Assembly: GCF_963664735.1 (NCBI RefSeq)
Contig: NZ_OY761553.1
Span: 2,185,303-2,249,302, forward strand
Source of the DNA: an uncultured Cohaesibacter sp.
Lineage (GTDB): Bacteria > Pseudomonadota > Alphaproteobacteria > Rhizobiales > Cohaesibacteraceae
Reading direction: 5' to 3'
Length of the DNA stretch: 64,000 bases
Made by a program: the position numbers and the translations under genes. A model generated the notes under the pieces. That model had not been told where the DNA came from. It ran no database searches and worked only from the letters and a program-made list of their open reading frames with translations. Below are positions 16,747 to 32,914 of this stretch, in pieces (the stretch's first letter is position 1; every line of letters starts with the position of its first letter).

Positions 16747-16797
16747 GCAAAGCCCTCTGACCCAAATAATTTAAATTTACTCCTAGACTTCTATGTC

Positions 16798-16982: not shown

Positions 16983-17492
16983 TCAATCGCTGATAATTGC
17001 CCGCAGCATCCAGAGCGCTTTCTCATGGAAGGTGAGCCGTGCAGTCAGCATGTCTTCGGTAACCAGATCGCCTGCATTGCCAGCTGCTTCGCCGGCGCGG
17101 CGCATTGTTCGGACCAGCTCTTCATGCATGGCGATAAGATCTTCGACCATATCCTGCGCCTTGAGATCAGACACCTCGCCACGTTCTGGCATGAAGTTAC
17201 CGAAGTTTGCACCCTTGACCGGAGCCAAGGCGTCCAGGGCACGAATACGCTCTGCGATTTCATCAGCGGCCGCGAACAGGTCGTTGTAATGCTCTTCCGT
17301 CAGTTCGTGGAGCGATTTGAACAAAGGCCCGACAACGTTCCAGTGGTAGATATGACTAACCACGGTCAGCTTGTAGGTCGCACCAAGAATATCAGACAGC
17401 GCTTCGGCCATATCCTTGCGGTAGGTTGCATCCAAGCCGTTGTTGATCTTGGATTCGCTTGGAGCAGTTTGCAATACAGCATGTACAGTCAT
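16983..17492 (-). CDS. dps: Dps-family ferritin-like DNA-protection protein
   Basis: A 169-residue Dps protein. The frame opens at 17606, but the ATG at 17492 follows AAAGGAT and begins the usual Dps N-terminus, so I use it. The ferroxidase residues at the dimer interface are visible: His50 in HIYHWNVVG, His62 in SLHELTEEHY, Asp77 and Glu81 in AAADEIAER. Dps oxidises and stores iron and can coat DNA, protecting against hydrogen peroxide. It is downstream of the DUF883 and holin-like genes, after a 131-bp gap. I found no EcfG box directly upstream, so control may come from the DUF883 promoter. Confidence 0.93.
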   Translation of the reverse strand: MTVHAVLQTAPSESKINNGLDATYRKDMAEALSDILGATYKLTVVSHIYHWNVVGPLFKSLHELTEEHYNDLFAAADEIAERIRALDALAPVKGANFGNFMPERGEVSDLKAQDMVEDLIAMHEELVRTMRRAGEAAGNAGDLVTEDMLTARLTFHEKALWMLRAIISD

Positions 17493-17623
17493 GGTAGAGA
17501 TCCTTTCTAAATTCGTTTCAATATCGGAAATTGGGTGGCTTGGAGTCGTGCATCCAATAGCGTCGACCATAGGGTTACTCTCCCTCTGGCACGCCAGATC
17601 ACTCATGCCTCATGGCCAAGGTT

Positions 17624-18046
17624 CTAGCGCTTGGCATCACGCTTGCGAGAAACGTAACCGGCAGCCGTTATGCCGAAACCCAGCGCCATCATCAGCAATG
17701 GAGAGGCACTGACAATCTTCAGCACGGCCTGCATCGTCGCAAGATCTGTGCTCGACGCGGCCCGAGCGGCGGCTTTTACCCGCGCTCTTTGACAACGCCG
17801 ACGAGCAAGCAGGTAAAGAACAATCGCACTGGCTAAAAATGCCAGCGCAGCCAGTATGATCGACGCCTCCAATGCGCCCAGATAGCGCTCCAGCGCAATG
17901 AACGAGGCCAGAAGCCCAAAGACTGAGCCGACGAGGCCTGCAAGGAAGGCTACTACAAAGAGCAGTCCGTCCTCAAGGCTGTCTTCAAGCTCTCGCTTGA
18001 TTCCCGGGCCAGCCAGTTGGGCCAAAATGGAGACAAGGGCGCCCAT
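17624..18046 (-). CDS. Putative holin-superfamily (phage_holin_3_6-like) membrane protein
   Basis: A 140-residue protein with two adjacent long hydrophobic helices (about 28-50 and 60-82), a very basic stretch (ARRRCQRARVKAAARAA), and a C-terminal hydrophobic helix (about 113-132). The layout resembles the chromosomal holin-like family often found beside YqjD/DUF883 genes, not a phage lysis gene. It starts 3 bp after the DUF883 stop, so the two are co-transcribed. The function is unknown. The neighbourhood suggests envelope adjustment under stress. Confidence 0.65.
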   Translation of the reverse strand: MGALVSILAQLAGPGIKRELEDSLEDGLLFVVAFLAGLVGSVFGLLASFIALERYLGALEASIILAALAFLASAIVLYLLARRRCQRARVKAAARAASSTDLATMQAVLKIVSASPLLMMALGFGITAAGYVSRKRDAKR

Positions 18047-18049
18047 GGT

Positions 18050-18370
18050 TTATTTACGCACCATCAAGGCGGCCAGAAAACCGACACCTGCAGCAAGGCC
18101 AACAGCGGCAAGCGGCTTCTTGCGAATTTCCAGCATCATGCGCGCTTCTGCACGACCTGCGTCTTCGCTGAGCTCGGACACTTTTTCCTGAGCCTTGGCA
18201 ACGGCGGTTTTGGCAACGCCTCGAGCCCGCTCCTGCAGATTGATGACATCATCGGATCCACGTTTTGACAACAGATCAGTAATGCTTGCGATGTCGGAAC
18301 GCAGCTCTTCGATCTGTTTGTTCAGGTCTGCATCAACGGTGGTTTCGCTTTTGTTATTGGCAGTAGCCAT
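18050..18370 (-). CDS. DUF883 / ElaB-YqjD-like membrane protein
   Basis: A 106-residue protein: a charged coiled-coil helix (about 14-80, with IEELRSDIASITDLLSKRG and AKAQEKVSELSEDAGRAEA) and a C-terminal membrane helix (LAAVGLAAGVGFLAALMVRK). This is the ElaB/YqjD plan; members are inner-membrane proteins, some of which bind ribosomes in stationary phase. The start at 18370 is set by AAAAGGAG 8 nt upstream; the longer frame to 18409 lacks a site. It is the first gene of a DUF883-holin-Dps run. GGAAC at 18438-18434 lacks a proper -10, so no EcfG promoter is claimed. Confidence 0.85.
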   Translation of the reverse strand: MATANNKSETTVDADLNKQIEELRSDIASITDLLSKRGSDDVINLQERARGVAKTAVAKAQEKVSELSEDAGRAEARMMLEIRKKPLAAVGLAAGVGFLAALMVRK

Positions 18371-18472
18371 AGCGTAATCTCCTTTTGTTTCGTATTCGTC
18401 AGACACCAAACCAATGTTTGCAAACCGGGCTTTGTTCCTGATTTTATTGAATATTTATATTTTTAATTTTCT

Positions 18473-18497
18473 GGAACCTTTATGCGTTCCATGCGTT
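18473..18497 (+). promoter_or_regulatory. EcfG-type promoter of the GAF-PAS-HWE kinase gene
   Basis: GGAAC at 18473-18477, 16 nt, CGTT at 18494-18497, an exact consensus match about 145 bp before the kinase start. Confidence 0.8.
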
Positions 18498-18639
18498 GGA
18501 ATAATGAATCGCTCGCGGGGCGCGTGCTGTTTCTCTCAGACCAGAAGCCACCAAAGTGATTTGGAAACACAACGACATGCGCGTTGGAAAACAAAATTCG
18601 AGAAACAAGGTCATTTGCTGTCTTGGGGCCTAAGTTGAA

Positions 18640-20118
18640 ATGATCAATTTTGAAATCATGCACAAAGATTTGCTTGCGTTGGTGCAGGATGAAAGACGAC
18701 TTCGGGCCGTTGAGATGGCTTGTGGTCTGGGTGTCATGCCAGACACGGACTTCGACACGATCATCGACATGATCAGAATGCAAACTGGCGCGGACACGGC
18801 CTTCATTGCAATTGTCAAACAGAACGAAGTTCTCTATCAGGCCTGCTCATCGGACGAAGCTCTACAAACCGATTTCACCGATGAAGTTGCGGTTTCCTGT
18901 CTTATGGAACGGGATGGCTGGGCTCTCGAACCTTTGCCAGAAAAACTCACAAAAGCCGGTTATGCTGGTCATGTTTGGGGCATTCCGATTATGGTTTCAG
19001 ACCATGCGATTGGTAGTCTCTGCCTCATGGATGAAAGCGGTCGGGCAGACGGATGGGCCGTTCTTGATGATGACCTGTTGGAACGATCTGCACGCCTTAT
19101 CGCTTCCATGTTCGAGTTGAAGCAAACCGCCCGCACGCGAACCATGTCCGAATTCGACCTGTCTCTGGCCAATGTGCGCTATGCGTTGGCGTTGAAGGCG
19201 GGGCAAGTAGCGACTTGGAGCTGGGATCAGGACGAACAGGTAATCGAGTGCGACCCGCTCATGCGCAAGATGCTTGGCCTCCAGGACGTGGGAACGGTGA
19301 CCGGCTCGCGTCTCTTTCGACAGATTGACCATGACGATCTGGTTCGCATTCGCAGTGAAGTCGATCAAGTCTACGGATCAGATGAGGATGTCACGGTCGA
19401 GTTTCGCGTAAAAAACACTGGCTGTTATGTCCTGGCGTTGGGTCATGTGTTCGAACGCGATGCTCAAGGCAAACCCAAGAAGATCCTTGGTGTGGCGATT
19501 GACCTTACAGATAGCAAACGCAGCGAAGAAAAAACACGCCTGTTGCTGCGCGAGGTGAACCATCGGGTCAAGAATATGCTGGCGATCCTGCAATCTCTTG
19601 CCAGTCAGACGCTGCGCCACGCCCAATCACCAGAGCGCTTCACCCGCGCCTTTTCGGGGCGTTTGTCAGCGCTCGCCACATCTCACAGTCTTCTGTCGGA
19701 TCAGGAATGGGAAGACATTGATCTGGTGAGCCTCATTCAAACACAGGTCAAGCCCTACGCCAGTCATTATGCCGAGCAGGTCACAATCGAAGCCAAACCC
19801 ATCGCAATCAATGCCGATGCGGCAATCGCTCTGGGGCTCGTCATTCACGAGCTGGCGACAAACGCCATGCAATATGGAGCTCTTTCACGCAGGGAAGGCA
19901 AAATCGACATTGCCATTAAACAGATCGACGGGGAGAGAGGACACAAGATGCTCTCCATTCTCTGGAATGAAACCGGAGGCCCTGCTCTCAGTGAACAGAG
20001 GCGCAACGGATTTGGCTCCATTCTGATAGAGAATAGCCTGAACAAGGTTATCGGCAGCAAGGTAAATATCAACTACAGAAAATCTGGGATTTCTGCCAAA
20101 ATCGAAATGCCGATATAG
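18640..20118 (+). CDS. Cytosolic GAF-PAS HWE-family histidine kinase
   Basis: A 492-residue soluble kinase: GAF domain (about 25-165), PAS domain (about 178-292, with ATWSWD and GVAIDLTD at its ends), then an HWE core. His308 in REVNHRVKN is the phosphoacceptor, Asn408 in HELATNAMQYG is the N-box residue, and Trp442-Asn-Glu444 is the WxE motif. It lacks membrane helices, unlike the CHASE kinase at 13 kb. An exact EcfG promoter upstream would make this kinase part of the response it is likely to trigger, giving positive or dampening feedback through PhyR. The ribosome site at the ATG is weak; a start at 18658 is possible. Confidence 0.9.
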   Translation: MINFEIMHKDLLALVQDERRLRAVEMACGLGVMPDTDFDTIIDMIRMQTGADTAFIAIVKQNEVLYQACSSDEALQTDFTDEVAVSCLMERDGWALEPLPEKLTKAGYAGHVWGIPIMVSDHAIGSLCLMDESGRADGWAVLDDDLLERSARLIASMFELKQTARTRTMSEFDLSLANVRYALALKAGQVATWSWDQDEQVIECDPLMRKMLGLQDVGTVTGSRLFRQIDHDDLVRIRSEVDQVYGSDEDVTVEFRVKNTGCYVLALGHVFERDAQGKPKKILGVAIDLTDSKRSEEKTRLLLREVNHRVKNMLAILQSLASQTLRHAQSPERFTRAFSGRLSALATSHSLLSDQEWEDIDLVSLIQTQVKPYASHYAEQVTIEAKPIAINADAAIALGLVIHELATNAMQYGALSRREGKIDIAIKQIDGERGHKMLSILWNETGGPALSEQRRNGFGSILIENSLNKVIGSKVNINYRKSGISAKIEMPI

Positions 20119-20158
20119 TATATTTTCAACATGTCAATTTATATTTCTTAAAAATTTC

Positions 20159-20183
20159 GGAACAATTCATATTCGCGCTCGTT
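20159..20183 (+). promoter_or_regulatory. EcfG-type promoter of the PRC-barrel gene
   Basis: GGAAC at 20159-20163, 16 nt, CGTT at 20180-20183, an exact match about 90 bp before the start codon. Confidence 0.85.
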
Positions 20184-20273
20184 TTCCTCGTACAAGCCGA
20201 GAGAAAATGAAACTAAACTTGATTATACTTCATTTTCTCTCATGTAACGATAAAATTTACGAGGAGAGGAATA

Positions 20274-21140
20274 ATGAATTACAAGCTCATTGCCACAACT
20301 GCTTTGGTTGCAAGTCTGTCTACCAGTGCATTTGCCATGGACAACATGCAAAAGCCAACAGACATGAACAAGGCATCTGGCAGCCCGCACATTGAATCGA
20401 GTGCGCCTGACAGTGAACTTGAAAAAGGCAAAGCCATGCTGTTCAGCGTGTTCTCCAAGATCGTATCACCGGGAGCAACCCACAACCAGAACGGCTATTT
20501 GACAGCTACGCCAGACCAGATGCTGGCAAGCGATCTGATTGGTAAAACAGTCTACTCTTCCGTCAAAGATGTTGACGGCGTACGCACCATCATCGGCGAC
20601 ATTAATGACATCGTGCTCAATGACAGTGGCTCGGTAGAAGCTGCAGTCATCGGCGTTGGTGGCGTTGTCGGCATCGGTGAAAAAGACATTGCGGTTGACT
20701 TCAACCGCCTGCAGTGGATGACCTGGGATAAGGAACGCCATCTCGTTATGGCTTCAACCATTACAGAGCTGGAACAGGCGCCGGAATTCAACCGCGAAGG
20801 CGTAACGACCATGGCTAATGCCGACCTGCTGATCATTGATCAGAACAAGCTGAGCACAGACCAGCTGATCGGAACCTCGGTCTATGGTGAACAGCTGAAT
20901 GAAATCGGCAAGGTCAGCGACGTCATTCTCGACTCCAAGAAACAGGTTGAGGCCTATATCGTTGATGTGGGGGGCTTCCTTGGCATCAATGCCAAGCCTG
21001 TAGAATTGGATGCAGACAAGCTCAATGTCTATGCTGGTGCAGAAGGCGCGTTGCATGTCTACACGCCATTTACCCAGAAGCAGCTGGAAAGCATGCCTGC
21101 CTACGAAGAAGAGAATGAGCAGATCAGCTTTCTGAAATAA
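20274..21140 (+). CDS. Exported protein with two PRC-barrel domains
   Basis: A 288-residue protein with a signal peptide (cleavage likely after STSAFA, residue 22) and two PRC-barrel domains, about 84-160 (LIGKTVYSSVKDVDG...IGDINDIVLN) and about 198-260 (LIGTSVYGEQLNEIGKVSDVILD). Each has the Gly-rich VDVGGFLGI / IGVGGVVGI strand. Exported PRC-barrel proteins are frequent in stress regulons of Hyphomicrobiales; their job is not known. AGGAGAGG precedes the ATG. It has its own exact EcfG promoter and ends in a terminator, so it is a single-gene unit. Confidence 0.85.
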   Translation: MNYKLIATTALVASLSTSAFAMDNMQKPTDMNKASGSPHIESSAPDSELEKGKAMLFSVFSKIVSPGATHNQNGYLTATPDQMLASDLIGKTVYSSVKDVDGVRTIIGDINDIVLNDSGSVEAAVIGVGGVVGIGEKDIAVDFNRLQWMTWDKERHLVMASTITELEQAPEFNREGVTTMANADLLIIDQNKLSTDQLIGTSVYGEQLNEIGKVSDVILDSKKQVEAYIVDVGGFLGINAKPVELDADKLNVYAGAEGALHVYTPFTQKQLESMPAYEEENEQISFLK

Positions 21141-21247
21141 TCCCGGAGAGGAAACACCCGGCGGGGAATGGGTGGCCAGACAAAACAAGCAGGCCACCCC
21201 GAACTATGGTTACGTCACAAACGCTCTCTCAATGTGATGTGCAACAG

Positions 21248-21284
21248 AAAGGCATCGTGCACTAACCGCACGGTGCCTTTCTTG
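21248..21284. terminator. Bidirectional terminator between PRC-barrel and reductase genes
   Basis: A 13-bp stem (AAAGGCATCGTGC with GCACGGTGCCTTT, one wobble) between convergent genes. A second stem without T-run (GGGTGGCC with GGCCACCC) lies at 21170-21199. Confidence 0.75.
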
Positions 21285-21319
21285 CATTTTCACTCTTCGA
21301 GCTTATTCTGTCTTCGCGT

Positions 21320-22273
21320 CTAAAGACCCGCTTCGGTCAGCTTTGCCATGTCATCGTCGCCAAGATCCAGCTCGACGGCTCGAACAAAGCTCTCGATCTG
21401 ACTGATGCTTGTGGCGCTGGCAATCGGGGCTGTCACCCCTTCGCTTCTAATGATCCAGGCGAGCGCAATCTCGGCCAATTTGGCGTAGTGACTGGCAGCA
21501 ACCTCATCAAGCACCTTCAACACATGCACGCCCTTTTCGTTATAAAACCGCTTGGCCATGTCGCCCCGTTTCGGGCCTTTGAAATCTTCTTCCTTGCGGT
21601 ATTTTCCGGTCAGAAAGCCAGAAGCAAGGCTGAAATAGGTCACGACCCCAATATTTTTGTCGACACAAAATTCTTTTAGCGGCGCTGAGAATTTCTCGCG
21701 GGAATTGAGGTTAAATTCCGGCTGAAGCACCTGATAGAAAGGAAGGTCTCCCTTCTTTGAGGCTTCAAGCGCACCGGTCATGAGGGCAAGATCATAGTTG
21801 GAGGCACCAATGGAGCGGATCTTTCCAGCCTTGAGCAGCTTGTCATAGGCACCAAGCGTATCCTCGTGGGTGGCATCAGGATCGGGCCAGTGCGAAAAAT
21901 AAAGATCAATATAGTCGATGCCAAGGCGTGAGAGAGAGTCCTCAACCGCCTTCAGAATCCACTCGGACTTAAGGCCCTTGTGCCCCGGAACACCCATGTC
22001 CGAGCCCACTTTCGTGAAGAGCTTTACCTTGTCACGCATGCCCGGACGAGCCTTGAACCACTTGCCCAGGATGGTTTCGGATTCGCCACCCTTGTTTCCC
22101 TCTGCCCAGCGGGAGTAGGCATCGGCGGTGTCTATCGTATCAAAGCCGTGATCGATGAAGGCATCCAGTATCCGAAAGCTTTCCTGTTCATCAAGGGTCC
22201 AGCCGAAAACATTTCCGCCAAACACGATCGGGGCGATTTCAAAGCCGGTATTTCCGAGTGCTTTCTTTTCCAT
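21320..22273 (-). CDS. Aldo/keto reductase
   Basis: A 317-residue TIM-barrel NADPH-dependent oxidoreductase of the aldo/keto reductase superfamily. The catalytic tetrad can be placed at Asp48 and Tyr53 (DTADAYS), Lys88 (FTKVG) and His128 (YFSHW), and the cofactor-binding region includes SIGASNYD. The sequence is closest in style to the YajO/Tas-like group that reduces assorted aldehydes and ketones. The natural substrate is unknown. It stands alone and convergent with the PRC-barrel gene. No EcfG site is seen on its strand. Confidence 0.9.
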   Translation of the reverse strand: MEKKALGNTGFEIAPIVFGGNVFGWTLDEQESFRILDAFIDHGFDTIDTADAYSRWAEGNKGGESETILGKWFKARPGMRDKVKLFTKVGSDMGVPGHKGLKSEWILKAVEDSLSRLGIDYIDLYFSHWPDPDATHEDTLGAYDKLLKAGKIRSIGASNYDLALMTGALEASKKGDLPFYQVLQPEFNLNSREKFSAPLKEFCVDKNIGVVTYFSLASGFLTGKYRKEEDFKGPKRGDMAKRFYNEKGVHVLKVLDEVAASHYAKLAEIALAWIIRSEGVTAPIASATSISQIESFVRAVELDLGDDDMAKLTEAGL

Positions 22274-22766
22274 GTGACAGTCTCTCCTGGGATTGGGGAT
22301 CAGACGGCCTCATCGTGACCTGATGAAAAGGGAAATGCATGGCCAAATGAGCCGCCGGGGTTGGTCTTGATTGTGAAATGGGCGGGAAATTGAGGCAAGA
22401 GCGTTGTCCTGTTTTGTATCCTGTTGGCCATTTTCTGCACCGGAAATTCTGAAAGCTGAAGGCGCTGCCATGCGGCTAGACAAAACCTTCCCTAAATCCC
22501 GTTAATAATGCCGAGAGTGGATGTGCTTTGCTATTTTTCAGGGAACTTTATGGCAGCCATTACGTTGGTTTTTTGTAAGACGGACACACTCTCTTTTAGA
22601 GTTGTGATCCTGGACTTTTCAAAGCGAACCGCTCTTTCGCTTCTCTGTCTTGCACCATCGTGACCTGCCCTCCCAAATCAGGGTTACGCTTTTCAGTTCA
22701 GTTTTCTGGTGTGGTTCAGATCGAAGCGCATGTGGAGCACCAAACAGCATATTGAGAGGATAACAA
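22274..22766. other. Intergenic region with one EcfG site
   Basis: About 490 bases between the divergent aldo/keto reductase and dehydrogenase operons. Apart from the EcfG-type site at 22542-22566, I see no gene, terminator or repeat. Confidence 0.5.
22542..22566 (+). promoter_or_regulatory. EcfG-type promoter upstream of the PQQ dehydrogenase operon
   Basis: GGAAC at 22542-22546, 16 nt, CGTT at 22563-22566. Exact consensus and spacing, 200 bp before the small membrane protein that leads the operon. The long leader leaves room for another promoter. Confidence 0.7.
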
Positions 22767-23165
22767 ATGGATATTCTACCCGATCGATACTCCTCGGGGC
22801 CATTGCTGCTCATTCTTGGAGCGGCTGCCGGGCTGGTTATCTCGATCTATTACTTCATCACACCGCTCACTGGCGTTAACGATACGATCGGTGCCGGACT
22901 GGTCATCTTTTCAACCGCGATCATGCTCATCGCAGCCCTCATTCATCCGATCCTGCCATCAGGCATGTTCCGGGCGACCGTCAAATTCCTCATCCTTGTT
23001 GATGCGGTTTGCACCATCGCTGCGGGTTATTTCCTGCATGAATGGTTCCTGATCGCCTTCATGGTCGTAGCGCTCGGCGGCGCAATCATCGATACGGTCT
23101 CAGGCATCTCCTCGGGAACTGGCTCGCCCAAATCAAACCTGAAAACACAGGGAGCGGCGGCATGA
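22767..23165 (+). CDS. Four-helix membrane protein, likely partner of the PQQ dehydrogenase
   Basis: A 132-residue protein with four predicted membrane helices (about 12-33, 42-62, 70-90, 95-113) and a short hydrophilic tail. GAGGA precedes the ATG. Its stop overlaps the start of the next gene by 4 bp (ATGA), so translation is coupled. Membrane glucose dehydrogenases such as Gcd carry a multi-helix N-terminal membrane domain of about this size fused to the PQQ domain. Here the fused domain is absent from the enzyme and this gene occupies its place, so I infer a separated membrane subunit. Direct sequence similarity to the Gcd helices is not evident by eye. Confidence 0.7.
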   Translation: MDILPDRYSSGPLLLILGAAAGLVISIYYFITPLTGVNDTIGAGLVIFSTAIMLIAALIHPILPSGMFRATVKFLILVDAVCTIAAGYFLHEWFLIAFMVVALGGAIIDTVSGISSGTGSPKSNLKTQGAAA

Positions 23166-25225
23166 AATATCTCACAGGGCTATTGTTATGCAGCACTCTT
23201 GGCTTTGCCGTAAGCGGAACCTCAGGGTTCGCACAGGAAGCGGCAGGCAATGCTGGCGGCGATGCTTCAGCCCACAGGGGCTATGTTGTACCGGCACCCA
23301 TAGAAGATATTGACAAAGCGGTGGTGTCACCCATTCTCAACCACACCCCACGACAACGCAAGGGCATCCCGCTTGTCCCCAAAGAGGCCACATGGGACAG
23401 CTTCCATGGGCAGCTGAACGCGCAGAAATATTCCCCCCTTGACCAGATCAACACCAGAAACGTGGGCAAGCTTGAGAAGGTTTGGGAAATTCATACCGGC
23501 GACGTTTCCGATGGTAGCGGTGACAAACCAGCTACCGTCTGGTCGGCAACGCCGATTTTCGCCAATGACACGCTCTATATCGGCACGCCCTTCTATCGCA
23601 TTCTGGCGCTTGATCCTGCCACAGGCAAAGAGAAATGGTCGTTCGATACCAAGTCGCGACTGGAAGCGCTGACGCAGCCTGCGCTCAAGAACCGCGGCGT
23701 TGCCTATTGGCAGGCTGAAAACCCGATTGCCGGTGAACCTTGCCAGAAAATCGTTTATATCGGCACCATGGATGCCCGCCTGTTTGCGGTTGATGCGGAC
23801 AGCGGCAAGGCATGCGAGGCATTTGGCGACCATGGCGCTCTGGATGTCAATCAGTGGAACACACGGCCTGATCGCTTTCCGCTTTCGCTCTTGCAGCCAC
23901 CGACCGTGGCAGGCAACCATCTGATCATGGGGTGGGCAGGCAAGGACTGGGAATTCTCCGAGGCCCCTCCGGGAGCTGTCTTCTCGGTTGATCCGCAAAC
24001 CGGCGATTTGCAGTGGGCCTTTAACACCATCCCTGAAAATATTCGCCGCCAGACCGGCACCGCCAACGTATGGACGGCCATGTCTGTCGACAAGGATCTT
24101 GGTCTGGTCTATTTGCCGGTTGCCTCGCCTTCACCCAACTATTGGGGCGGCAACCGCAAGCAACAGATCCCTTATGCCACATCGACAACGGCACTGGATC
24201 TGGAAACCGGCAAGGTCGTCTGGTCGCGCCAGTGGGTGCATCATGATATCTGGGATTATGACATTAACTCGGCCCCGACCCTGATGGACATCACCGTTGA
24301 CGGCAAAAAGATACCCGCGCTCATTCAGGCAACAAAAATGGGGTTTCTGTTTGTGGTCAACCGCGAGACGGGCGAAGACGTCTGGCCGATCGAGGAACGC
24401 CCGGTTCCGCAAGGAGACGGCACAGTCGAGGGCGAGGTTTATGCTCCGACCCAGCCATTCCCGACCAAGCCAGCCCCGCTTCTGGACCAGTCAAAAAAAC
24501 CTCAGGTCTGGAAGATCGCCGATATCGTTGGAGGTGGCTCCTGTTCGGCTCTATTCGACAAACTCAGCTATGAGGGCATGTATAGCCAACCGACCACCAA
24601 GGGCGAAGGTGTGTTGACCTATCCTGATAGCGCCGGTGGCGTACAATGGGGCGGTGTAGCCTTTGATCCGGAAAGCCAGACGGCCATCGTCAACACCTCC
24701 CATATCGTGCAGTATATCAAGCTCTATGCGCGCGAGCAGTATGACAAGATCAACAGTGACTCGGGCAATGAAAATGGCTTTTATCCGCAGAAGGGCGCGC
24801 CTTACGGCATGAGCCTGCTGAACGCCATGAACTGGCTGGGCATGCCTTGTTGGAAACCTCCGTTCGGAGAATTGGTCGCGCTCGACATGCATACTGGTGA
24901 TGTGAAATGGCGCAAACCGATCGGTTCGTCCCAGCGCTATGGTTTCTTCATGCCCGAAAGCATGGGCTCGCCAACAATCGGCGGTCCAGCGGTTACCAAG
25001 GGCGGTCTGGTATTTATCGGCGCCACCATGGATGCCAAGGCCCGCGCCTATGATCTCAAAACCGGCAAGGTCTTGTGGTCGGACCAGATGCAGGCTCCGG
25101 TCGTAGCCAACCCTGCTGTCTATGAATATAAAGGCAAGGAATATGTTGCCTTCGTTTCTGGCGGCAACTCCATTCTGAAACCTGCCGTAGGCGATCAGGT
25201 CGCGGTCTATGCCCTGCCTGATTGA
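23162..25225 (+). CDS. PQQ-dependent dehydrogenase, glucose/quinate/shikimate family, exported
   Basis: A 687-residue quinoprotein with a Sec signal peptide (cleavage near GTSGFAQ, about residue 25) and an eight-bladed PQQ propeller. The family features are clear: WDSFHGQLNAQKYSPL near the start, LDPATGKEKWSFDT, WVHHDIWDYDINSAPTL, and WGGVAFDPE. HHDIWDYD is the stretch shared with Gcd. It oxidises an aldose or cyclic polyol in the periplasm and passes electrons to quinone. It lacks the N-terminal membrane domain of Gcd, which the overlapping upstream gene may supply. No PQQ synthesis genes are in the window. The ATG at 23162 is chosen because a signal peptide follows directly. Confidence 0.88.
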   Translation: MKYLTGLLLCSTLGFAVSGTSGFAQEAAGNAGGDASAHRGYVVPAPIEDIDKAVVSPILNHTPRQRKGIPLVPKEATWDSFHGQLNAQKYSPLDQINTRNVGKLEKVWEIHTGDVSDGSGDKPATVWSATPIFANDTLYIGTPFYRILALDPATGKEKWSFDTKSRLEALTQPALKNRGVAYWQAENPIAGEPCQKIVYIGTMDARLFAVDADSGKACEAFGDHGALDVNQWNTRPDRFPLSLLQPPTVAGNHLIMGWAGKDWEFSEAPPGAVFSVDPQTGDLQWAFNTIPENIRRQTGTANVWTAMSVDKDLGLVYLPVASPSPNYWGGNRKQQIPYATSTTALDLETGKVVWSRQWVHHDIWDYDINSAPTLMDITVDGKKIPALIQATKMGFLFVVNRETGEDVWPIEERPVPQGDGTVEGEVYAPTQPFPTKPAPLLDQSKKPQVWKIADIVGGGSCSALFDKLSYEGMYSQPTTKGEGVLTYPDSAGGVQWGGVAFDPESQTAIVNTSHIVQYIKLYAREQYDKINSDSGNENGFYPQKGAPYGMSLLNAMNWLGMPCWKPPFGELVALDMHTGDVKWRKPIGSSQRYGFFMPESMGSPTIGGPAVTKGGLVFIGATMDAKARAYDLKTGKVLWSDQMQAPVVANPAVYEYKGKEYVAFVSGGNSILKPAVGDQVAVYALPD

Positions 25226-25245
25226 CAGGATTTGAACAAAGCTAA

Positions 25246-25283
25246 GAAAAGGGCACCAATTGTTACGATTGGCGCCCTTTTCT
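25246..25283 (+). terminator. Terminator of the PQQ dehydrogenase operon
   Basis: A 15-bp stem (AAAAGGGCACCAATT side with ATTGGCGCCCTTTT, one mismatch), tight loop, T-rich end. Confidence 0.85.
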
Positions 25284-25604
25284 ATGCCCAGCCTACGCCC
25301 ATAGCTCGCCAATCCTCTTTCCGCTTTTCTTTTCCCTGACCGAAAGTTTTTCTCTCTGCTTGGCTTTCCAGGCCATTTAACTCTCAGACATCCTAGCTCT
25401 GGTCTTGCCCTTCCCTTCTCATTTTCTCCTCCTCTAGCTGCGTCCCAAACCAGAGCGCGGCAGCTCATAGGTCTGTCTCTCTGTGTCTGGTGGTGTAAAG
25501 GGGGTAGATCTTGGCTCAAGACTGGAAAGAGGCAAAGAAAAAGCCGGGCTTAAGCCCGGCTTTTCATCCTCATCAATAACGCAAGCTTTAAGCCTTGGTC
25601 TCAC
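25284..25604. other. Intergenic region
   Basis: About 320 bases between convergent operons. It is pyrimidine-rich on the plus strand and holds the terminator at 25537-25565; otherwise nothing is recognised. Confidence 0.4.
25537..25565 (-). terminator. Terminator of the glucosylglycerol operon
   Basis: A perfect palindrome of GCCGGGCTTAAGCCCGGC flanked by A and T runs. On the minus strand it is followed by TTTTTCTTT, 40 bp after the synthase stop. Confidence 0.88.
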
Positions 25605-27119
25605 TCAGCCTATGGCAGAGTGAAAAGTGCGGCGGCGTTGGCTCGCCTTGTGAGCGGAGAATTCAGCTTCCAACTGATCGCCCCAGGCTTTTATATCGCG
25701 ACGGTTCACGGCATCACGCAGCAACTTCATGCGTGTGCGGCGTTCTTCTTCAGGCATATTCAACGCTGTCAGGATCGCTTCGTCCATAGAACGGTGCGAG
25801 AACGGGTTGGCTATGACGGCGGACCCCATTTCAACGGCAGCACCGGCAAATTCCGACAGAACCAAAACGCCATCGCCATCACTGCGGGAGGCTACATATT
25901 CCTTGGCAACAAGGTTCATGCCATCGACAAGTGGCGTGATCCATGCCACATCGGCGGCACGATAATAAGCAACCAGATCGGAGAACGGAATGGCGCGGGA
26001 AATGAGGGTCACCGGCTGCCAATCGAGTGTACCAAAGCGGCCATTGATGCGACCGGCGGCCGCTTCGATATCATTCTGGATTTCCCCATAAGCACTCATG
26101 TTTCGGTTGGCACTGACAGAGACATGCATCAGGCGCACCTTGCCGATCAGCTCCTTGTTGCTATCAAGCAGACGTTCGAAACTATCCAGCTGCTCGACAC
26201 CGCCCTTGGTATAGTCGGTTCGGCCAACCGAGAGGATAAGCTTTGTATCACCCATCTCTTCCATGATTTGATTGGCGCGGCTCACGTTGCGCGGATCGTT
26301 GACGCATTCCGAGATATAATCAACATCGACGCCAACAGGGGCAACAGAAATCCCGATCTCACGCCCTTCCCAGCCAAGCAAGGTTGGAACACGACGCTCG
26401 GTCAGAGCCGTTCCTTCAAAGATCATGTCTTCGCTGACCAGTTCGCGGCGCAACACGTCAACGTCCAGAAGGCTGCTTGCCGCGGAGACGAAGTTTGCGG
26501 CGTAGCGAGGAATATGGAACCCGACCACATCACATTGTAGCAGGCTCTCGATGATCTCCTTGCGCCATGGCAGAATATTGAACATATCTGCAGACGGGAA
26601 CGGGGTGTGATGGAAAAAGGCAATGCGTACATCGGGGCGCATCTTGCGCAGATAGCCCGGCACCAGCCAGAGGTTATAATCATGCACCCAGATCATCGCC
26701 CCTTCGGCTGCCTCAGCGGCTGCGGCTTCGGCAAAGGCCCAGTTCACCTCACGAAAGTTTGGCCAATCCACCGGATCATAATTATAGCGCTCACGAAAAC
26801 CGTGAAGGATTGGCCAGAAGGCCTCCTTGGAGGTAACGTGGTAGAATTGTTTCACCTGATGGGCTGAGAGCGGCAACCGAGAAACCGAATATTTGCCGTG
26901 ATCATCTTCCACTTCGATGACCTGTTCGAAATCCGGATTGGCGGGATCTTCTGCCAGTTTCCATGCCACCCAGGAACCATGGTCTACAGCTCCAAAGAAG
27001 CTCTTCAGGGTCGGCACAATTCCGTTCGGGCTTTTATTCTCCCGAAGCTCGGTCTTTCCGTTAACTTCAACTTCTTCATACGGTTGGCGATGATAAACAA
27101 TGACAAGATCAGAAGACAT
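25605..27119 (-). CDS. ggpS: Glucosylglycerol-phosphate synthase (GgpS-like, GT20)
   Basis: A 504-residue glycosyltransferase of family GT20 (OtsA fold). From memory, the N-terminus ([19 protein letters not shown]), [38 protein letters not shown] and [19 protein letters not shown] match cyanobacterial GgpS closely and differ from OtsA, which has a GGL loop after VVSNR. GgpS joins ADP-glucose and glycerol-3-phosphate to glucosylglycerol-phosphate. The upstream co-directional genes (a G3P dehydrogenase and a sugar-phosphatase) supply the acceptor and the final step, which supports this over trehalose-6-phosphate synthase. The ATG at 27119 begins the family N-terminus; the 24 codons before it do not fit. 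It is the last gene of the operon. Confidence 0.85.
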
Positions 27120-27198
27120 GGGTCTAGCTCTAGTTCCTTTTGTTTGAATTGAGAAATTTGCTTTGATAATTCGTGAGTTGGCACAAGCCATTGCCGGC

Positions 27199-27987
27199 TC
27201 AGACCTTCAGGGTCATCGCCGGATGCATGCCGAGTGAACGGATGGCCTCTGCAATGCCCGCAGCACCGATGGCCTCAGCAACATGGACATGGTCGAGAAA
27301 ACGTACCTTCTCCAAAAGCGGCTCTTCAGCCCCTCCAACAGCAACAGCCGGGACGCCACATTGCAGCATCGAGAGATCGTTGAGCGTATCTCCGGCGGCG
27401 AGCACGCGACTGGCATCAAGACCAAGATGGTCAATCAGCTTGAGCAGCGAAGGCCCTTTGGAAAAGCCCTTGGGTAATACGTCGAAAAATCTGTCGGCAG
27501 AGATGATCCAATCCAGCCCCATGGCATCAATGATGGAGCAGGCGGACGCATCAAAAAGCTTGGCATCCATGTCGTAGCTGACACGATAGCGGAAAGGCGT
27601 TGGCTGCAGGGTCAGGCCCTCAATATCGGCCAGAGCATCGCGCACCCGCTCGCCACTATCATTCCATGCACTGGCAATGTCATGTTCCAGCGCAGGAATA
27701 GGCTCGACATTCCCTTCGGCAGTGACCTTGGCGATGGTCGTGCCGATGTCGCCAACAACATATTCCGGACGCGGGACGCCTTGGCTTGATGTCAGTTCAA
27801 CGATGAATTCCGGGTCGCGACCAGTGACGAAAACAAGGCCGACGCTATCGCGATTGGCTTCGATCCAGTCATAAAGGGCCTTGCGATCTTCATCACTTCC
27901 GCCAAGGAAAGTGCCGTCCAGATCGGTTGCCAGAACAAAGCGTTTTTGGGCGATGTCCACCTTAATGTCTACTGTCATGTTGTTCAT
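27199..27987 (-). CDS. HAD-IIB sugar-phosphate phosphatase, likely glucosylglycerol-phosphatase
   Basis: A 262-residue HAD hydrolase. Motif I is ATDLDGTFLGG (the two Asp are nucleophile and acid/base), motif II is near FVTGRDPE, and motif IV is AAGDTLNDLSML. The cap is of the IIB type found in sucrose-, mannosylglycerate- and trehalose-phosphate phosphatases. Some bacteria fuse a phosphatase of this kind to GgpS; here it is a separate gene 80 bp upstream of it. I therefore infer dephosphorylation of glucosylglycerol-phosphate. It does not look like the cyanobacterial StpA phosphatase. GGAG before the ATG at 27987 sets the start, 47 bp after the dehydrogenase stop. Confidence 0.8.
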   Translation of the reverse strand: MNNMTVDIKVDIAQKRFVLATDLDGTFLGGSDEDRKALYDWIEANRDSVGLVFVTGRDPEFIVELTSSQGVPRPEYVVGDIGTTIAKVTAEGNVEPIPALEHDIASAWNDSGERVRDALADIEGLTLQPTPFRYRVSYDMDAKLFDASACSIIDAMGLDWIISADRFFDVLPKGFSKGPSLLKLIDHLGLDASRVLAAGDTLNDLSMLQCGVPAVAVGGAEEPLLEKVRFLDHVHVAEAIGAAGIAEAIRSLGMHPAMTLKV

Positions 27988-28034
27988 TTTGGCTCCAATG
28001 AATTGGTGAAATATCTTCGTTGCGATCAAGAGGC

Positions 28035-29327
28035 CTATTCAGCCGCACTTGCAAGGATTTCTTGCTCTTGCTGGCGTGCTGGATGGGAATAGGAAAGGTC
28101 CATGGCGCTCGGTTCAGCCTCAATGGGGCGCGACCACAACGCGGCAAAGGTCTCTTCGATATTGGCACCGTCATAAAGAATGCTGCGGACCGCTTCACAG
28201 ATTGGCATGGTCACGCCCAGTCTGCGTGCAAGGTCGGTAATGGAGCGGGCATTTGCCTCCCCTTCCACGACCATATGGTGACCGTCAAAACAGTCCTGCC
28301 TTGCGATCCCCTGCCCCAATTGCAGCCCGAGAGACATATTGCGCGAGGTGGGCGACGAGCAGGTTAGCGTGAGGTCTCCGACACCAGATAATCCTGCAAC
28401 GGTTTCTCGTCGTCCACCAAGCTTTTCGGCCAACTGCATCATTTCGTCGATACCGCGCGTGATGAGCGCTGCGCGGGTGTTCTCGGCAAATCCAACGCCC
28501 TGCATCATGCCGCAGGCGATGGCGACCACATTCTTGACCGCGCCACCGATCTCGACACCCACCAGATCATCGGACACATAAGAACGAAACGCTTCGGTGC
28601 TGAGTGTCATGGCAAAGCGCACAGCCGGGCTTTCTTCTGGCGTTAGGCGGTCGGCATAACTGAAAGGAAAGGCCGAAACGACAGCGGTTGGATGGCCAAT
28701 TGCGGTTTCTCGGGCGAAGGTCGGGCCTGACATGACCCCAACCGGATGCCCCACAAGCTCGGCTTCGGCAACCTGGGTCATCAAAAGGCCCGTATCGGCT
28801 TCAATGCCCTTGGCACATACGGCAACCGGTACGCCGCTGGCTATGTATTTTGCAACCTCGGCCGAGACTGCGCGAATGGCGCGAGAAGGCACGACAATCA
28901 TTACCGCGTCAGCATAGGCCAGAGCGGCGCGCATATTCGTTGTCGCTTTGAGATTATGCGGCAATGCGCAGTCTGGCAAAAACACCGAATTGGCATGCTT
29001 CTCATTGACTTCATTGACCACGCCTTCAGAACGCCCCCACAGGATGGTGCTTATGCCCGCTCGCGCAGCGGTGGTCGCCAGCGCAGTGCCCCATGATCCA
29101 GCGCCGATAACGGCGAGCCTGGAAAATGGATGGGCATGGTTTTTGTTACAATCGGGTTGCGAAACTTCCGGATCGGTTTCTGAAACAGGCGTTTCTGGTG
29201 TAGACACCGGAGAGGGCCTCTCCTCTTTTGGCGGAGTAAACTGGGAGAGTTGCACCCGTCTTCCCCCCATCTGCCAGCCTCCGAACAAGGCATCCCAAAG
29301 GGTTCGAACTGCAAAACCATCTCGCAC
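28035..29327 (-). CDS. gpsA: NAD(P)-dependent glycerol-3-phosphate dehydrogenase with N-terminal extension
   Basis: A 430-residue protein. From about residue 72 it is a complete GpsA: GAGSWGTALA Rossmann motif, LWGRS, PSRAIRAV, GPTFARETA, GGAVKNVVAIACG with the catalytic Lys, and LSGVGDLTLTCSSPTSRN. It reduces dihydroxyacetone phosphate to glycerol-3-phosphate, here the GgpS acceptor. The likely start is a GTG at 29327 with AAGGAG 7 nt upstream; upstream ATGs at 29354 and 29351 lack a ribosome site. About 70 extra residues precede the enzyme, a short hydrophobic/basic segment (WDALFGGWQMGGRRVQL) then a Pro/Glu/Thr linker. It may be a dedicated osmoprotection copy beside a housekeeping gpsA elsewhere. 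Confidence 0.88.
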   Translation of the reverse strand: MRDGFAVRTLWDALFGGWQMGGRRVQLSQFTPPKEERPSPVSTPETPVSETDPEVSQPDCNKNHAHPFSRLAVIGAGSWGTALATTAARAGISTILWGRSEGVVNEVNEKHANSVFLPDCALPHNLKATTNMRAALAYADAVMIVVPSRAIRAVSAEVAKYIASGVPVAVCAKGIEADTGLLMTQVAEAELVGHPVGVMSGPTFARETAIGHPTAVVSAFPFSYADRLTPEESPAVRFAMTLSTEAFRSYVSDDLVGVEIGGAVKNVVAIACGMMQGVGFAENTRAALITRGIDEMMQLAEKLGGRRETVAGLSGVGDLTLTCSSPTSRNMSLGLQLGQGIARQDCFDGHHMVVEGEANARSITDLARRLGVTMPICEAVRSILYDGANIEETFAALWSRPIEAEPSAMDLSYSHPARQQEQEILASAAE

Positions 29328-29915
29328 TGTATGTCTCCTTGAAACAATCATCATATGTTGCAAATATGCTCGTAAGTTCAGCTTTGATAACGTCAATAGG
29401 CCGCAGCACCTGAGGGCTGGGAGCCTTCAAATTAAGTCTTTGCGCTACACGACGGAAAAACAAAATGGCTTTAATCAAGACAATCGCCACATTGACCATC
29501 AATGGTAACGCTCCAATGACACAACGCATAAGGAAGGAATTAGTTTCAAAAATTTTTGAATAAATTTTTCAGGCTGGCTTTCTGACAAATCAAATATCAC
29601 TTACTAATGAAAAAATTAAAATATATCATAAATTAATATATGTCAATTTTAAACATACACATAAAAATTATAAATAATATATTATTTTTACTATATTTTA
29701 TATTTTAATCTTATATTGATTTCTTTATTTTTCAAAAATTCAATAAATCTATACTTCAAATAAACTAATAAAATTTTTCTCAATAATCTCCTTTAGGCAG
29801 TATCAACAAAGACTAGCCAAAGCAATAAACCGCAGCCGGTTTTTACACCAACTGCGGTTTTCCATGCCAAGATTCGGGTGCTGACGGGAGCCAAATCAGC
29901 CCGTAGCCCTACAGG
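29328..29915. other. Intergenic region, strongly AT-rich
   Basis: About 590 bases upstream of the glucosylglycerol operon. From 29530 to 29800 it is nearly all A and T with no reading frame, and must contain the operon promoter. A terminator for the glycerate kinase lies at 29827-29862. No EcfG site is seen. Confidence 0.5.
29827..29862 (-). terminator. Terminator of the garL-garR-glycerate kinase operon
   Basis: An 8-9 bp stem (AACCGCAG with CTGCGGTTT) with a 16-nt loop and a moderately T-rich tail, 53 bp after the kinase stop on the minus strand. Confidence 0.6.
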
Positions 29916-31178
29916 CTATTCAATCAGGATGGCTCGAAAATCATTCACATTCGTCATGGTCGGTCCGGTAATGACACTGTCTCCCAACACTTCGAAAAAT
30001 CCATGACCGTTGTTGTTGGCCAACTGCTGACTAGGGTTCATACCAAGCGCAAACGCTCGCCTGATTGTATCGGGCTCAATGATCGCCCCTGCAATCTCTT
30101 CCACACCATCAACCCCGTCCGTATCACCCGCCAGCGCATACACGCCATCAAGGCCGTTGAGCGCAACCGCCAGCGAGAGCAAGAACTCGACATTTCGCCC
30201 GCCGCGCCCATCGCCCCTCAAGGTGACTGTGGTCTCTCCACCAGAGAGCAGAAGGCACGGCTTATTAAGCGGTTGGTCTTTAAGAGATATTTGTCGCACA
30301 ATCCCGGCCATCACTTTACCGACGTCTCTGGCTTCGCCCTCCAGACTATCGCCGAGAATATAGGGGGTGACGCAAGCCTTCCGCGCAACGTCTGCTGCAG
30401 CTTCCAGAGCCAGTTGCGGCGCAGCCACAATGTGGTGGCTATTGCGCGCAAGACGCTCATCACCTGGCTTGATGCTTTCGCACCTGTCATCGGCCAGCAG
30501 CTTCATGACGCTTGCAGGTAGATCCAACTTATAGCGCTCGACAATTTCCAGAGCATCGGCTCGTGTGGTCAAATCGGCTACGGTTGGTCCGGAGGCGATA
30601 TCCATAGGATTGTCGCCCGGCACATCGGAAATCATCAGGGTTGTCAGTTTGGCCGGATAGCATTGCGCCGCCAGACGTCCCCCCTTGACCGCAGACAAAT
30701 GACGCCTGAGGCAGTTCATTTCGGTGATCGTCGCCCCTGAGGCAAGCAATGCCTTGTTCACCGCCTGTTTGTCTTCCAAGGCGATACCATCAAGGGGCAG
30801 AGATAAAAGAGCCGAGCCCCCACCCGAGATCAGGCAAAGAACCTCATCGTCTTCGCCAAGATCTTTCACATAATCCATTATGCGTCGGGCGGCCAATTGA
30901 CTGTTGGCATCAGGCACCGGATGGGCCGCCTCGACAATCTCGATATGCTTGCATGGCACGGAATAGCCATAGCGCGTAACCACCAGACCTTCCAGCGGTC
31001 CATCCCAATGATCTTCCACCGCGCGTGCCATGGCTGCGCTGGCCTTGCCCGCCCCGATGACGACAAAGCGTCCACGGGGCGGTTGCTGCGGGAGGAACAA
31101 CTCGACGCAACGGGAGGGCTGGGCAGACTCAATGGCCGCATCAAAGAGGGACCGCAAGAAAAATCTGGCGTCACGCAT
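29916..31178 (-). CDS. Glycerate 2-kinase (MOFRL family)
   Basis: A 420-residue kinase of the GckA/TtuD type with an N-terminal DUF4147 domain (FVVIGAGKASAAMARAVE, AAHPVPDANS, LISGGGSALLSLP) and a C-terminal MOFRL domain (LLLSGGETTVTLRGDGRGGRN, ALAGDTDGVDG). It phosphorylates glycerate to 2-phosphoglycerate, the last step of aldarate breakdown. The ATG at 31178 overlaps the stop of garR (TGATG), so the two are translationally coupled. The frame continues upstream to 31238, but that part overlaps garR and is not used. Confidence 0.93.
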   Translation of the reverse strand: MRDARFFLRSLFDAAIESAQPSRCVELFLPQQPPRGRFVVIGAGKASAAMARAVEDHWDGPLEGLVVTRYGYSVPCKHIEIVEAAHPVPDANSQLAARRIMDYVKDLGEDDEVLCLISGGGSALLSLPLDGIALEDKQAVNKALLASGATITEMNCLRRHLSAVKGGRLAAQCYPAKLTTLMISDVPGDNPMDIASGPTVADLTTRADALEIVERYKLDLPASVMKLLADDRCESIKPGDERLARNSHHIVAAPQLALEAAADVARKACVTPYILGDSLEGEARDVGKVMAGIVRQISLKDQPLNKPCLLLSGGETTVTLRGDGRGGRNVEFLLSLAVALNGLDGVYALAGDTDGVDGVEEIAGAIIEPDTIRRAFALGMNPSQQLANNNGHGFFEVLGDSVITGPTMTNVNDFRAILIE

Positions 31179-32059
31179 CAGGCTACCGTGTGGTTTGCAA
31201 GCATTTCGAGGGCCTTGACCATGGCAGAGTGATCCCATGCCTTGCCGCCATTGGCCGCACAGGCATTGAACAGCTCCTGAGCGGTTGCCGTATTTGGCAG
31301 GCTGATGCCCATGGCTTTGGCGTTGGAAAGAGCCAGATTGAGATCTTTCTGGTGCAATTCGATGCGGAAGCCCGGATCAAAGGTGCGTTTGATCATGCGT
31401 TCACCATGGATCTCAAGGATCTTGGACGAAGCAAAGCCACCCATCAGTGCTTCACGCACCTTGGCAGGATCGGCACCGGCCTTGGACGCAAACAGAAGCG
31501 CTTCACTGACAGCTTCGATATTCAGAGCCACGATGATCTGGTTAGCCACCTTGCAGGTCTGACCATCACCATTGCCACCGACGAGGGTGATATTCTTGCC
31601 CATCAGATCGAACAGCGGCTTGGCTGTTGCAAAGCCCTTCTCGGAGCCGCCACACATGATGGTAAGAGAAGCTGCTTTGGCCCCCACCTCACCGCCAGAA
31701 ACCGGAGCATCGACATATTCGCAACCCAAATCATTGATCTTTTTGGCGAATTCCTTGGTATCGACCGGAGAGATGGAGCTCATGTCGATTACGGTCTTGC
31801 CAGCAGAAATGCCTTCTGCCACGCCATTTTCCCCGAACAATACTGCTGCGACATGTGGGGTATCAGGCACCATGACGATAATGATGTCAGACTTCTCGGC
31901 GACTTCCTTGGAGGAAGCGGCCACTGTGGCCCCTTTCTGCTTCAGGCTTTCAGGAACACCCACAACATCAAAGGCAAGCACTTCATGGCCACCTTCCAGC
32001 AGATGCTCCGCCATTGGTGCGCCCATGATGCCCGTACCGATAAATCCTACTTTGCTCAT
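31178..32059 (-). CDS. garR: 2-hydroxy-3-oxopropionate (tartronate semialdehyde) reductase
   Basis: A 293-residue beta-hydroxyacid dehydrogenase. It has the N-terminal dinucleotide motif GFIGTGIMGAPMA, the substrate-binding DAPVSGGEVGA, the catalytic Lys in GDGQTCKVANQIIVALN, and the C-terminal KDLNLAL. It reduces tartronate semialdehyde, released by the aldolase encoded 81 bp upstream, to D-glycerate. AAGGAG precedes the ATG. It is the middle gene of aldolase, reductase and kinase, in pathway order. Confidence 0.95.
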   Translation of the reverse strand: MSKVGFIGTGIMGAPMAEHLLEGGHEVLAFDVVGVPESLKQKGATVAASSKEVAEKSDIIIVMVPDTPHVAAVLFGENGVAEGISAGKTVIDMSSISPVDTKEFAKKINDLGCEYVDAPVSGGEVGAKAASLTIMCGGSEKGFATAKPLFDLMGKNITLVGGNGDGQTCKVANQIIVALNIEAVSEALLFASKAGADPAKVREALMGGFASSKILEIHGERMIKRTFDPGFRIELHQKDLNLALSNAKAMGISLPNTATAQELFNACAANGGKAWDHSAMVKALEMLANHTVA

Positions 32060-32140
32060 AAGAAAAACTCCTTGTCTGGTGCGCCCGAAGGCGCCAGTTC
32101 AATTTGATTGATTATTGAGCGAGGCGTCTTCGCCTCGGGC

Positions 32141-32914
32141 TTACTTGAGCTCTGCCAATTTGGAGATTGCGGCTGCCCGCATAAGAGCAACTTCTGCACC
32201 CAACGCAACGAAGGTGTAGCCCCATTCCAGATAGCGCTTGGCATCCGCAGTAACCGGAGCCAGAGTACCGATCGGAATGCCTTTGGATTTACAGACATCG
32301 CAAAGATGCTTCATCATTTTCTGCACTTCTTCATGTGCAGAGTTGCCCAGATGGTTCATGCTGGCCGCCAGATCTGATGGACCGATAAAGACGCCGCCAA
32401 GATTCTTGACGTCACAAATCTGCTCGATGCGCTCAGCGGCACTGGCAGTTTCCACCTGAACCAGCGCACAAGCGCGCGCGTTGGCCGACTGGATATAGCC
32501 AGCTTCCGCGCCATAGGAACAGGACCGGTGCATGGTGGCCACGCCGCGCACGCCTTCTGGCGGATAGCGCATGGCGGCTACAGCCTCTTCCGCTTCTTTC
32601 TCGTCCTGAACATAAGGAAAGAGAATCGTGCGGAAACCGATATCCATGTAGCGCTTGATCAGAACAGGATCATTCCAGGTAGCCCGAACGACTGGCTCGC
32701 TCATACTCCCTCGGAGGGCCTGTAATTGCGGGATCAAAGTAGCCAGATCGTTCGGAGCATGCTCGGCATCGAGAACGAGCCAGTCATAGCCCACGGCCCC
32801 GATGGCTTCGGTCGCGATGTTACTGGTAAGCGCGAGCCACAAGCCAAGCTGTGTTTCGCCCTTCTTGATTGCTTCCATGAAGCGGTTTTCTGGTGGATTA
32901 ATGAGATTCGTCAT
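32141..32914 (-). CDS. garL: 2-dehydro-3-deoxyglucarate aldolase (HpcH/HpaI family)
   Basis: A 257-residue class II aldolase, the usual length for GarL. Key pieces are the base-bearing DAEHAPND, VQVETASAAERIE with the metal-binding Glu, and FIGPSDLAASMNHLG with the metal-binding Asp. It cleaves 5-keto-4-deoxy- or 2-keto-3-deoxy-D-glucarate into pyruvate and tartronate semialdehyde. It is first in the operon with garR and glycerate kinase. GGGGAGG precedes the ATG. A 17-bp near-palindrome about 235 bp upstream is a candidate operator for the divergent FadR-type regulator. Confidence 0.92.
   Translation of the reverse strand: MTNLINPPENRFMEAIKKGETQLGLWLALTSNIATEAIGAVGYDWLVLDAEHAPNDLATLIPQLQALRGSMSEPVVRATWNDPVLIKRYMDIGFRTILFPYVQDEKEAEEAVAAMRYPPEGVRGVATMHRSCSYGAEAGYIQSANARACALVQVETASAAERIEQICDVKNLGGVFIGPSDLAASMNHLGNSAHEEVQKMMKHLCDVCKSKGIPIGTLAPVTADAKRYLEWGYTFVALGAEVALMRAAAISKLAELK

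Follow-up and report, generated by a model that had tools for sequence, protein, structure and literature searches.

The gene cluster and its enzymes

The window analysed here, a 64,000-nucleotide stretch of DNA from an uncultured Cohaesibacter sp., is part of a genome assembled as a single 4.94 Mb contig and carries on its minus strand three co-directional open reading frames (ORFs), in the order gpsA, a HAD-IIB phosphatase gene and ggpS (Table 1). We propose, with considerable confidence, that this trio is an operon for the synthesis of glucosylglycerol (GG), and that its gpsA, which encodes a glycerol-3-phosphate (G3P) dehydrogenase, is not the ordinary copy of the genome but one that came with the other two genes and would provide a dedicated supply of the acceptor.

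Table 1. Features of the gpsA–phosphatase–ggpS locus, in window coordinates
Feature	Position	Strand	Basis
Operon gpsA, NAD(P)H-dependent glycerol-3-phosphate dehydrogenase with N-terminal extension	28035..29396	(-)	NF000942, PF01210, PF07479, PF20618
HAD-IIB phosphatase, probable glucosylglycerol-3-phosphate phosphatase, homologue of the fused GgpPS N-domain	27199..27987 (~27987)	(-)	PF05116 S6PP
ggpS, glucosylglycerol-phosphate synthase (GT20)	25605..27119 (~27119)	(-)	TIGR02398, tree
Perfect palindrome, 26 nt, probable bidirectional intrinsic terminator	25539..25564	(-)	fold

Taking the first plausible ATGs as starts, gpsA and the phosphatase gene are separated by about 47 nt, and the phosphatase gene and ggpS by a stop codon and about 79 nt, so that the latter two are separate ORFs and not a GgpPS fusion; nothing unusual was found on folding the two gaps. 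The start of gpsA is uncertain: its frame extends as far as a TTG at 29396, and congeneric proteins, by their N-termini, point to an ATG near 29351-29354, while position 29327, given as the 5' end in an earlier sequence-only reading of this DNA, is a GTG internal to the gene. The 51-nt region of the palindrome folds in the transcribed strand with -22.2 kcal/mol (z -4.18, equalled by none of 200 shuffles). A consensus terminator scan returned five terminator-like sites in the region, against 5.4 expected, and missed the palindrome, probably because the T run sits within its stem. The downstream neighbour (23042-25225, PQQ dehydrogenase family) is convergent to the operon. The ORFs, family matches and fold bear out the earlier description of gpsA-type, HAD-IIB and GgpS-like genes lying co-directionally with one terminator, and we infer that the three share a single transcript.

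The synthase passes the equivalog model for glucosylglycerol-phosphate synthase (TIGR02398, 666.6 bits, cut-off 569), and stays below the cut-off of the OtsA model (TIGR02400, 418.7 bits against 564.85), in agreement with the earlier reading of its motifs as those of GgpS and not OtsA. In a tree of 62 rows it falls among 50 GgpS rows, which are split with 100/100 support from 12 OtsA-family rows, five of which pass the OtsA cut-off; the grouping inside OtsA that the sequence-only reading had named as its refutation did not occur. The synthase domains of five fused GgpPS form their own clade (98/90), apart from 45 unfused GgpS (100/99), all of them alphaproteobacterial with the exception of L064; cyanobacterial GgpS are not among the rows. 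The genome contains no second GgpS homologue at E 0.001 (seven candidates scored, with only the self-match), and it has glgC, for ADP-glucose supply (487.9 bits, cut-off 424.9).

GgpS and OtsA both belong to GT20 and the two pathways share the logic of a synthase followed by a phosphatase, the best-scoring solved proteins are trehalose-phosphate synthases, and PRK14501 gives 466.6 bits (cut-off 634), all of which could suggest that the synthase makes trehalose 6-phosphate and that the HAD gene encodes an OtsB-like phosphatase. The Cohaesibacter synthase, however, sits in another clade, with another predicted acceptor, and exceeds the cut-off of the GgpS model and not those of the OtsA models; the HAD protein matches S6PP, with no trehalose phosphatase family listed for it; and a separate OtsA-family gene is also present in four of ten unfused ggpS-positive genomes searched (G075, G088, G242 and G093). 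We consider trehalose synthesis extremely improbable, and rejected it on the family scores and the tree. The concern raised earlier that the locus would be mis-annotated as a trehalose pathway holds for annotation by OtsA/OtsB similarity only, since public annotation already names the synthase ggpS in Dinoroseobacter shibae and Falsirhodobacter.

The phosphatase matches PF05116 (S6PP, 1.6e-40), and no NCBIfam equivalog exceeds its cut-off. When it was used as query, the N-domains of the five fused GgpPS scored 121-165 bits, and it is 37-40% identical to the four that were aligned; the best-scoring solved protein, the sucrose phosphatase slr0953, reaches 44 bits. All 13 aligned phosphatases retain the DLDGT motif, the K and GDTxND, and the motif II T is replaced by S in one; we take these to be the catalytic motifs of the HAD family. 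By sequence homology, the protein is the free-standing counterpart of the GgpPS phosphatase domain, and it probably acts on glucosylglycerol 3-phosphate.

Distribution and known arrangements

Among 61 genomes of relatives, GgpS was found at E 1e-100 in ten, all Cohaesibacter, which is 10 of the 18 genomes of the genus (one of the eight ggpS-negative genomes is just 64% complete). The trio is present in the same order in all nine ggpS-positive congeners, thus in 10/10 with the window genome. The flanks vary: L012, L013 and L014 have a different gpsA-side flank, and L019 lacks the neighbouring PQQ dehydrogenase gene. In evenly sampled sets searched at E 1e-150, with the window genome counted, GgpS was detected in 14 of the 385 genomes from the class and in 12 of the 398 from the phylum. 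The gpsA–HAD–ggpS order was read in 15 of 16 other alphaproteobacterial loci, in one of which (L053) the gpsA–HAD gap is ~380-730 nt depending on the start chosen; the sixteenth (L055) is cut by a contig end, and another contig of the same genome (L281) has gpsA, the HAD gene and the start of ggpS. The six loci from other proteobacteria comprise five fused GgpPS and one unfused ggpS with a partial HAD frame (L064), and no gpsA was seen in the stretches available around them. This partial frame (L064:5709-7530, from G446, of another class of the same phylum) lies upstream of ggpS and may represent a phosphatase gene that is broken or frameshifted.

A scan of named genomes, covering the best 80 of at least 567 relatives by score and thus not a random sample, showed the HAD gene directly before ggpS in 80/80 loci, including six slight overlaps that the script had flagged otherwise. 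An 885-aa open frame in G088 was considered as a possible fusion and rejected, as the HAD domain lies in a different frame and the two genes overlap. gpsA lies at most 500 nt before the HAD gene in 69 of these 80 loci, or 69 of 78 when L136 and L185, whose upstream sequence is too short, are set aside. This recurrence, together with that in the nine congeners, argues that the arrangement is not due to chance. Plasmids also carry ggpS: five records match at E 1e-100, three from D. shibae and one each from Falsirhodobacter and Tistrella, and the annotated trio was present in both records opened, those of D. shibae DFL 12 and Falsirhodobacter algicola. Among viral contigs one stretch matched a pattern, and none encodes a relative. 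The search for the three-gene order that the sequence-only reading had suggested thus shows it to be widespread; the compact variant proposed there, with acceptor supply, synthesis and dephosphorylation in separate genes, is borne out, and is not peculiar to this genome. One locus, L166, is recorded under Enemella evansiae, an actinobacterial name, and its ggpS and gpsA (L260) group with the alphaproteobacterial ones; the record is probably mislabelled or contaminated.

The closest known parallel is found on the D. shibae plasmid pDSHI02 (DSHI_RS19325-19335), where gpsA, the HAD gene and ggpS have the same order and strand and GgpS is 69% identical; there the trio lies on a plasmid beside general-stress-response genes, whereas that of Cohaesibacter is in a 4.9 Mb contig. 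In the GgpPS fusions described for Stenotrophomonas, Pseudomonas, Azotobacter and Marinobacter (accessible text of PMC10873239), the HAD phosphatase likewise precedes GgpS, so that the domain order equals the gene order in the trio, and the domains of the five fused proteobacterial proteins are homologous to the two Cohaesibacter proteins. The difference is that they form a single protein, with no gpsA around the five loci (~13.5 kb each, one just 4.9 kb).

The cyanobacterial GG-phosphate phosphatase (StpA type) belongs to a different family from the HAD enzyme of the operon. Cyanobacteria resemble Cohaesibacter in having the synthase (GgpS) and phosphatase (GgpP) as separate genes, a comparison made by description, and the Fig. 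6 legend of the source lists gpsA and glpD for cyanobacterial ggpS loci (PMC6753628, as known from that legend). The pathway and enzymes are thus known, and what we describe is an unusual gene layout common to many marine relatives, not a new pathway. It represents a third arrangement for GG synthesis, besides the two separate genes of cyanobacteria and the fused GgpPS. In the literature searched, a scope outside which most subscription journals lie, we found no account of the alphaproteobacterial trio, although Kleist 2017 may describe the D. shibae genes, nor of a separately transferred operon gpsA or its sole-copy state.

Copy number and history of the operon gpsA

The operon GpsA belongs to the GpsA family (NF000942, 368.4 bits, cut-off 257, with PF01210, PF07479 and PF20618 matched), and the genome has a second gpsA beside tsaD (G000:C1:3411252-3412280). 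Two copies are present in all ten ggpS-positive Cohaesibacter, and one in each of the six ggpS-negative relatives searched (five congeners and one other family member; three further ggpS-negative congeners were outside the search). Two PF07479 matches are uncommon in the class (16 of 385 genomes, by manual count of the listing). The Cohaesibacter operon protein has an N-terminal extension of 70-90 aa (window 29110-29396), with a variable linker and a conserved stretch, ~RTLWDSLxGGWQMGGR, in 8/10; L012 and L013 have a different, shorter version, and none was seen in the two native copies inspected.

Outside the genus the picture is mixed. Copies were counted in 47 of the 80 named-genome carriers: the 37 with an operon gpsA have two copies in 30 cases and one in seven, and the ten without a visible operon gpsA (including L136, with its short upstream sequence) have one each. 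The seven single matches (L131, L147, L148, L179, L194, L197 and L203) are the operon copies themselves, by coordinate arithmetic. Among further carriers, three from family f65, which we assume to be Rhodobacterales, have two copies each, and the operon gpsA is the sole copy in 12 of 13 outside Cohaesibacter and f65, the thirteenth (G403) having two. Carriers with two gpsA, with the operon gpsA alone detected, and with the phosphatase–synthase pair but no operon gpsA thus offer a natural experiment on acceptor supply.

In a GpsA tree of 65 rows, the operon copies are split (100/99) from the native copies, of which ten of Rhodobacterales type (five from named carriers and five from f65) and five from Cohaesibacter form separate clades (100/100 each). 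Four ggpS-negative genomes (G326, G219, G307 and G272) fall within the operon-type group, and this type is their sole gpsA; in a quick tree of 111 rows five ggpS-negative genomes are found there, and the label "operon" needs five changes. A constraint joining the seven sole-copy Rhodobacterales with the native Rhodobacterales-type copies, a group chosen after the first tree was seen, was rejected (lnL 185.8 worse, p-AU 0.0012), indicating that these seven carriers have the operon type and that the native type was not detected in them. Pairwise protein distances across 94 loci are also strongly correlated (r 0.85 for GgpS–HAD, 0.90 for GgpS–GpsA and 0.84 for HAD–GpsA, against a maximum of 0.24 in 1000 permutations), with the qualification that shared host descent alone also produces correlation and that the set counts a few genomes twice.

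These data also bear on whether the operon gpsA might be a mere neighbour, an ordinary housekeeping gene with no special part in GG synthesis. Such an explanation would fit its sole-copy state in 12 of the 13 further carriers outside Cohaesibacter and f65, the same GpsA type as sole copy in ggpS-negative relatives, its absence from nine of the 78 scorable loci, and the situation within one genus, where G326 has ssb-gpsA alone and G229 has the pair as well, further downstream, a contrast that could reflect insertion of the pair or its loss. It does not fit so well with the retention of the operon gpsA beside a separate gpsA in Cohaesibacter and in 30/37 named carriers, with its co-divergence with ggpS, or with its presence alongside the pair on the D. 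shibae and Falsirhodobacter plasmids, and we judge it unlikely. The simplest reading is that linkage of the pair to an ordinary gpsA arose in one alphaproteobacterial lineage, and that Rhodobacterales and Hyphomicrobiales, including Cohaesibacter, later received the whole trio, the direction of transfer being inferred. The Cohaesibacter operon gpsA would accordingly have been acquired with the HAD gene and ggpS from a lineage in which GpsA is normally of this type.

A further, more tentative proposal, towards which we remain somewhat doubtful, is that several marine alphaproteobacteria have had their housekeeping gpsA displaced by the osmolyte operon; a single salt-related operon would then supply all their glycolysis-derived G3P, for membrane lipids and for GG alike, and Cohaesibacter would represent the preceding two-copy stage. 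Displacement is best supported in Palleronia (L179), whose sister in the tree (100/96) is a two-copy carrier; L131, L147 and L148 are also placed among two-copy carriers, with weaker tree support, and Albimonas, Thermohalobaculum and Limibaculum (L194, L197 and L203) branch at the base and may simply have inherited the operon-type gpsA. In any of the sole-copy carriers a missing contig could hide a second gpsA. If displacement did occur, phospholipid and osmolyte synthesis would share one jointly controlled step.

Predicted product and regulation

In the proposed pathway, GpsA would convert dihydroxyacetone phosphate to G3P, GgpS would transfer glucose from ADP-glucose to G3P to give GG-phosphate, and the HAD phosphatase would release GG, a compatible solute; the operon GpsA would thereby serve as a dedicated source of acceptor. 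The GgpS/GgpP steps are established, and their assignment to the trio is drawn from homology, gene order and conservation. That the operon yields a related heteroside (an isomer or some other glucosylated derivative of glycerol) and not 2-O-alpha-glucosylglycerol would be compatible with the separation of the alphaproteobacterial GgpS from the fused GgpPS in the tree, and no enzymology of an alphaproteobacterial GgpS was found in the literature searched; however, the GgpS equivalog model is passed, a G3P-making enzyme in the operon suits a glycerol 3-phosphate acceptor, and D. shibae reportedly uses alpha-glucosylglycerate/alpha-glucosylglycerol (Kleist 2017, cited in the accessible part of PMC9062515). 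We therefore consider a different heteroside very unlikely.

GG synthesis also finds some support in the occurrence, in relatives, of GHL5, a family that includes the cyanobacterial GG hydrolase Slr1670 and for which alphaproteobacterial homologues were already noted (accessible part of PMC5002435). A GHL5 gene stands beside the trio in L054 and L197 (Pfam-confirmed) and was found near it, by similarity, in the stretches of 7/114 loci; in whole genomes it was found in 7 of 19 ggpS-positive alphaproteobacteria other than Cohaesibacter, versus 1 of 12 ggpS-negative ones, and in none of five others. According to the accessible text of PMC10873239, heterotrophs that use the GgpPS pathway have no gghA homologues; the alphaproteobacterial split type is a separate case. 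GH13 alpha-amylase-family genes were also observed, divergent beside the trio in seven alphaproteobacteria (L043, L045, L047, L048, L049, L050 and L051) and near it in four loci of named genomes (L152, L160, L165 and L198); they are possible GG-degrading partners.

Some observations weigh against a GG operon with dedicated acceptor supply. GHL5 was absent from the ten ggpS-positive Cohaesibacter and from the six ggpS-negative Cohaesibacteraceae searched (16 genomes), so its support extends to the relatives only and not to this genus. D. shibae is said to prefer glucosylglycerate over GG when nitrogen is limiting (PMC9062515, in the part available). Finally, the nine loci with the pair alone indicate that gpsA is not required; a crude ORF list, partly of antisense frames, inspected by eye with no family search, showed no obvious alternative G3P enzyme upstream of them.

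If the proposed pathway is correct, limitation of osmolyte synthesis by G3P, and competition between lipids and osmolyte for it, would be directly testable in culturable marine bacteria, and the trio would constitute a ready three-gene cassette for GG production.

The motif GGAAC-N15-18-CGTT, which we take to be the general-stress (EcfG-like) promoter consensus, is present within 600 nt upstream of the GpsA domain at 14 of the 84 trio loci, a set without the G-numbered Cohaesibacter genomes, compared with 34 of 1680 random 600-nt stretches from the same loci (Fisher p 1e-8, a value that is too small given that the loci are related). This suggests general-stress control of the trio in some carriers; the motif was not found before the GpsA domain in the window, in D. 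shibae or in Falsirhodobacter. Sigma-70-like sites in 25200-29900 number 10 against 3.3 expected, nearly all in the AT-rich segment 29618-29735, and were not taken as evidence.

As separate observations, genes for an ECF sigma factor with a PhyR sigma2 domain match (16192), a ferritin-like protein (16986) and an HWE histidine kinase (18640) lie in the window at 16192-22566, 3-9 kb from the operon. GGAAC-N-GTT motifs occur at the same distance, with 11 in the whole window against 6.0 expected (as many in 4/100 shuffles). Close to the trio of D. shibae (L232) there are NepR, a PhyR-type regulator and a similar sigma factor. Upstream of the Cohaesibacter operon, on the same strand (29916-32914), is a row of genes matching models for glycerate 2-kinase, 2-hydroxy-3-oxopropionate reductase and a GarL/HpaI-type aldolase, of which the reductase alone passes its cut-off, perhaps a set for sugar-acid degradation.

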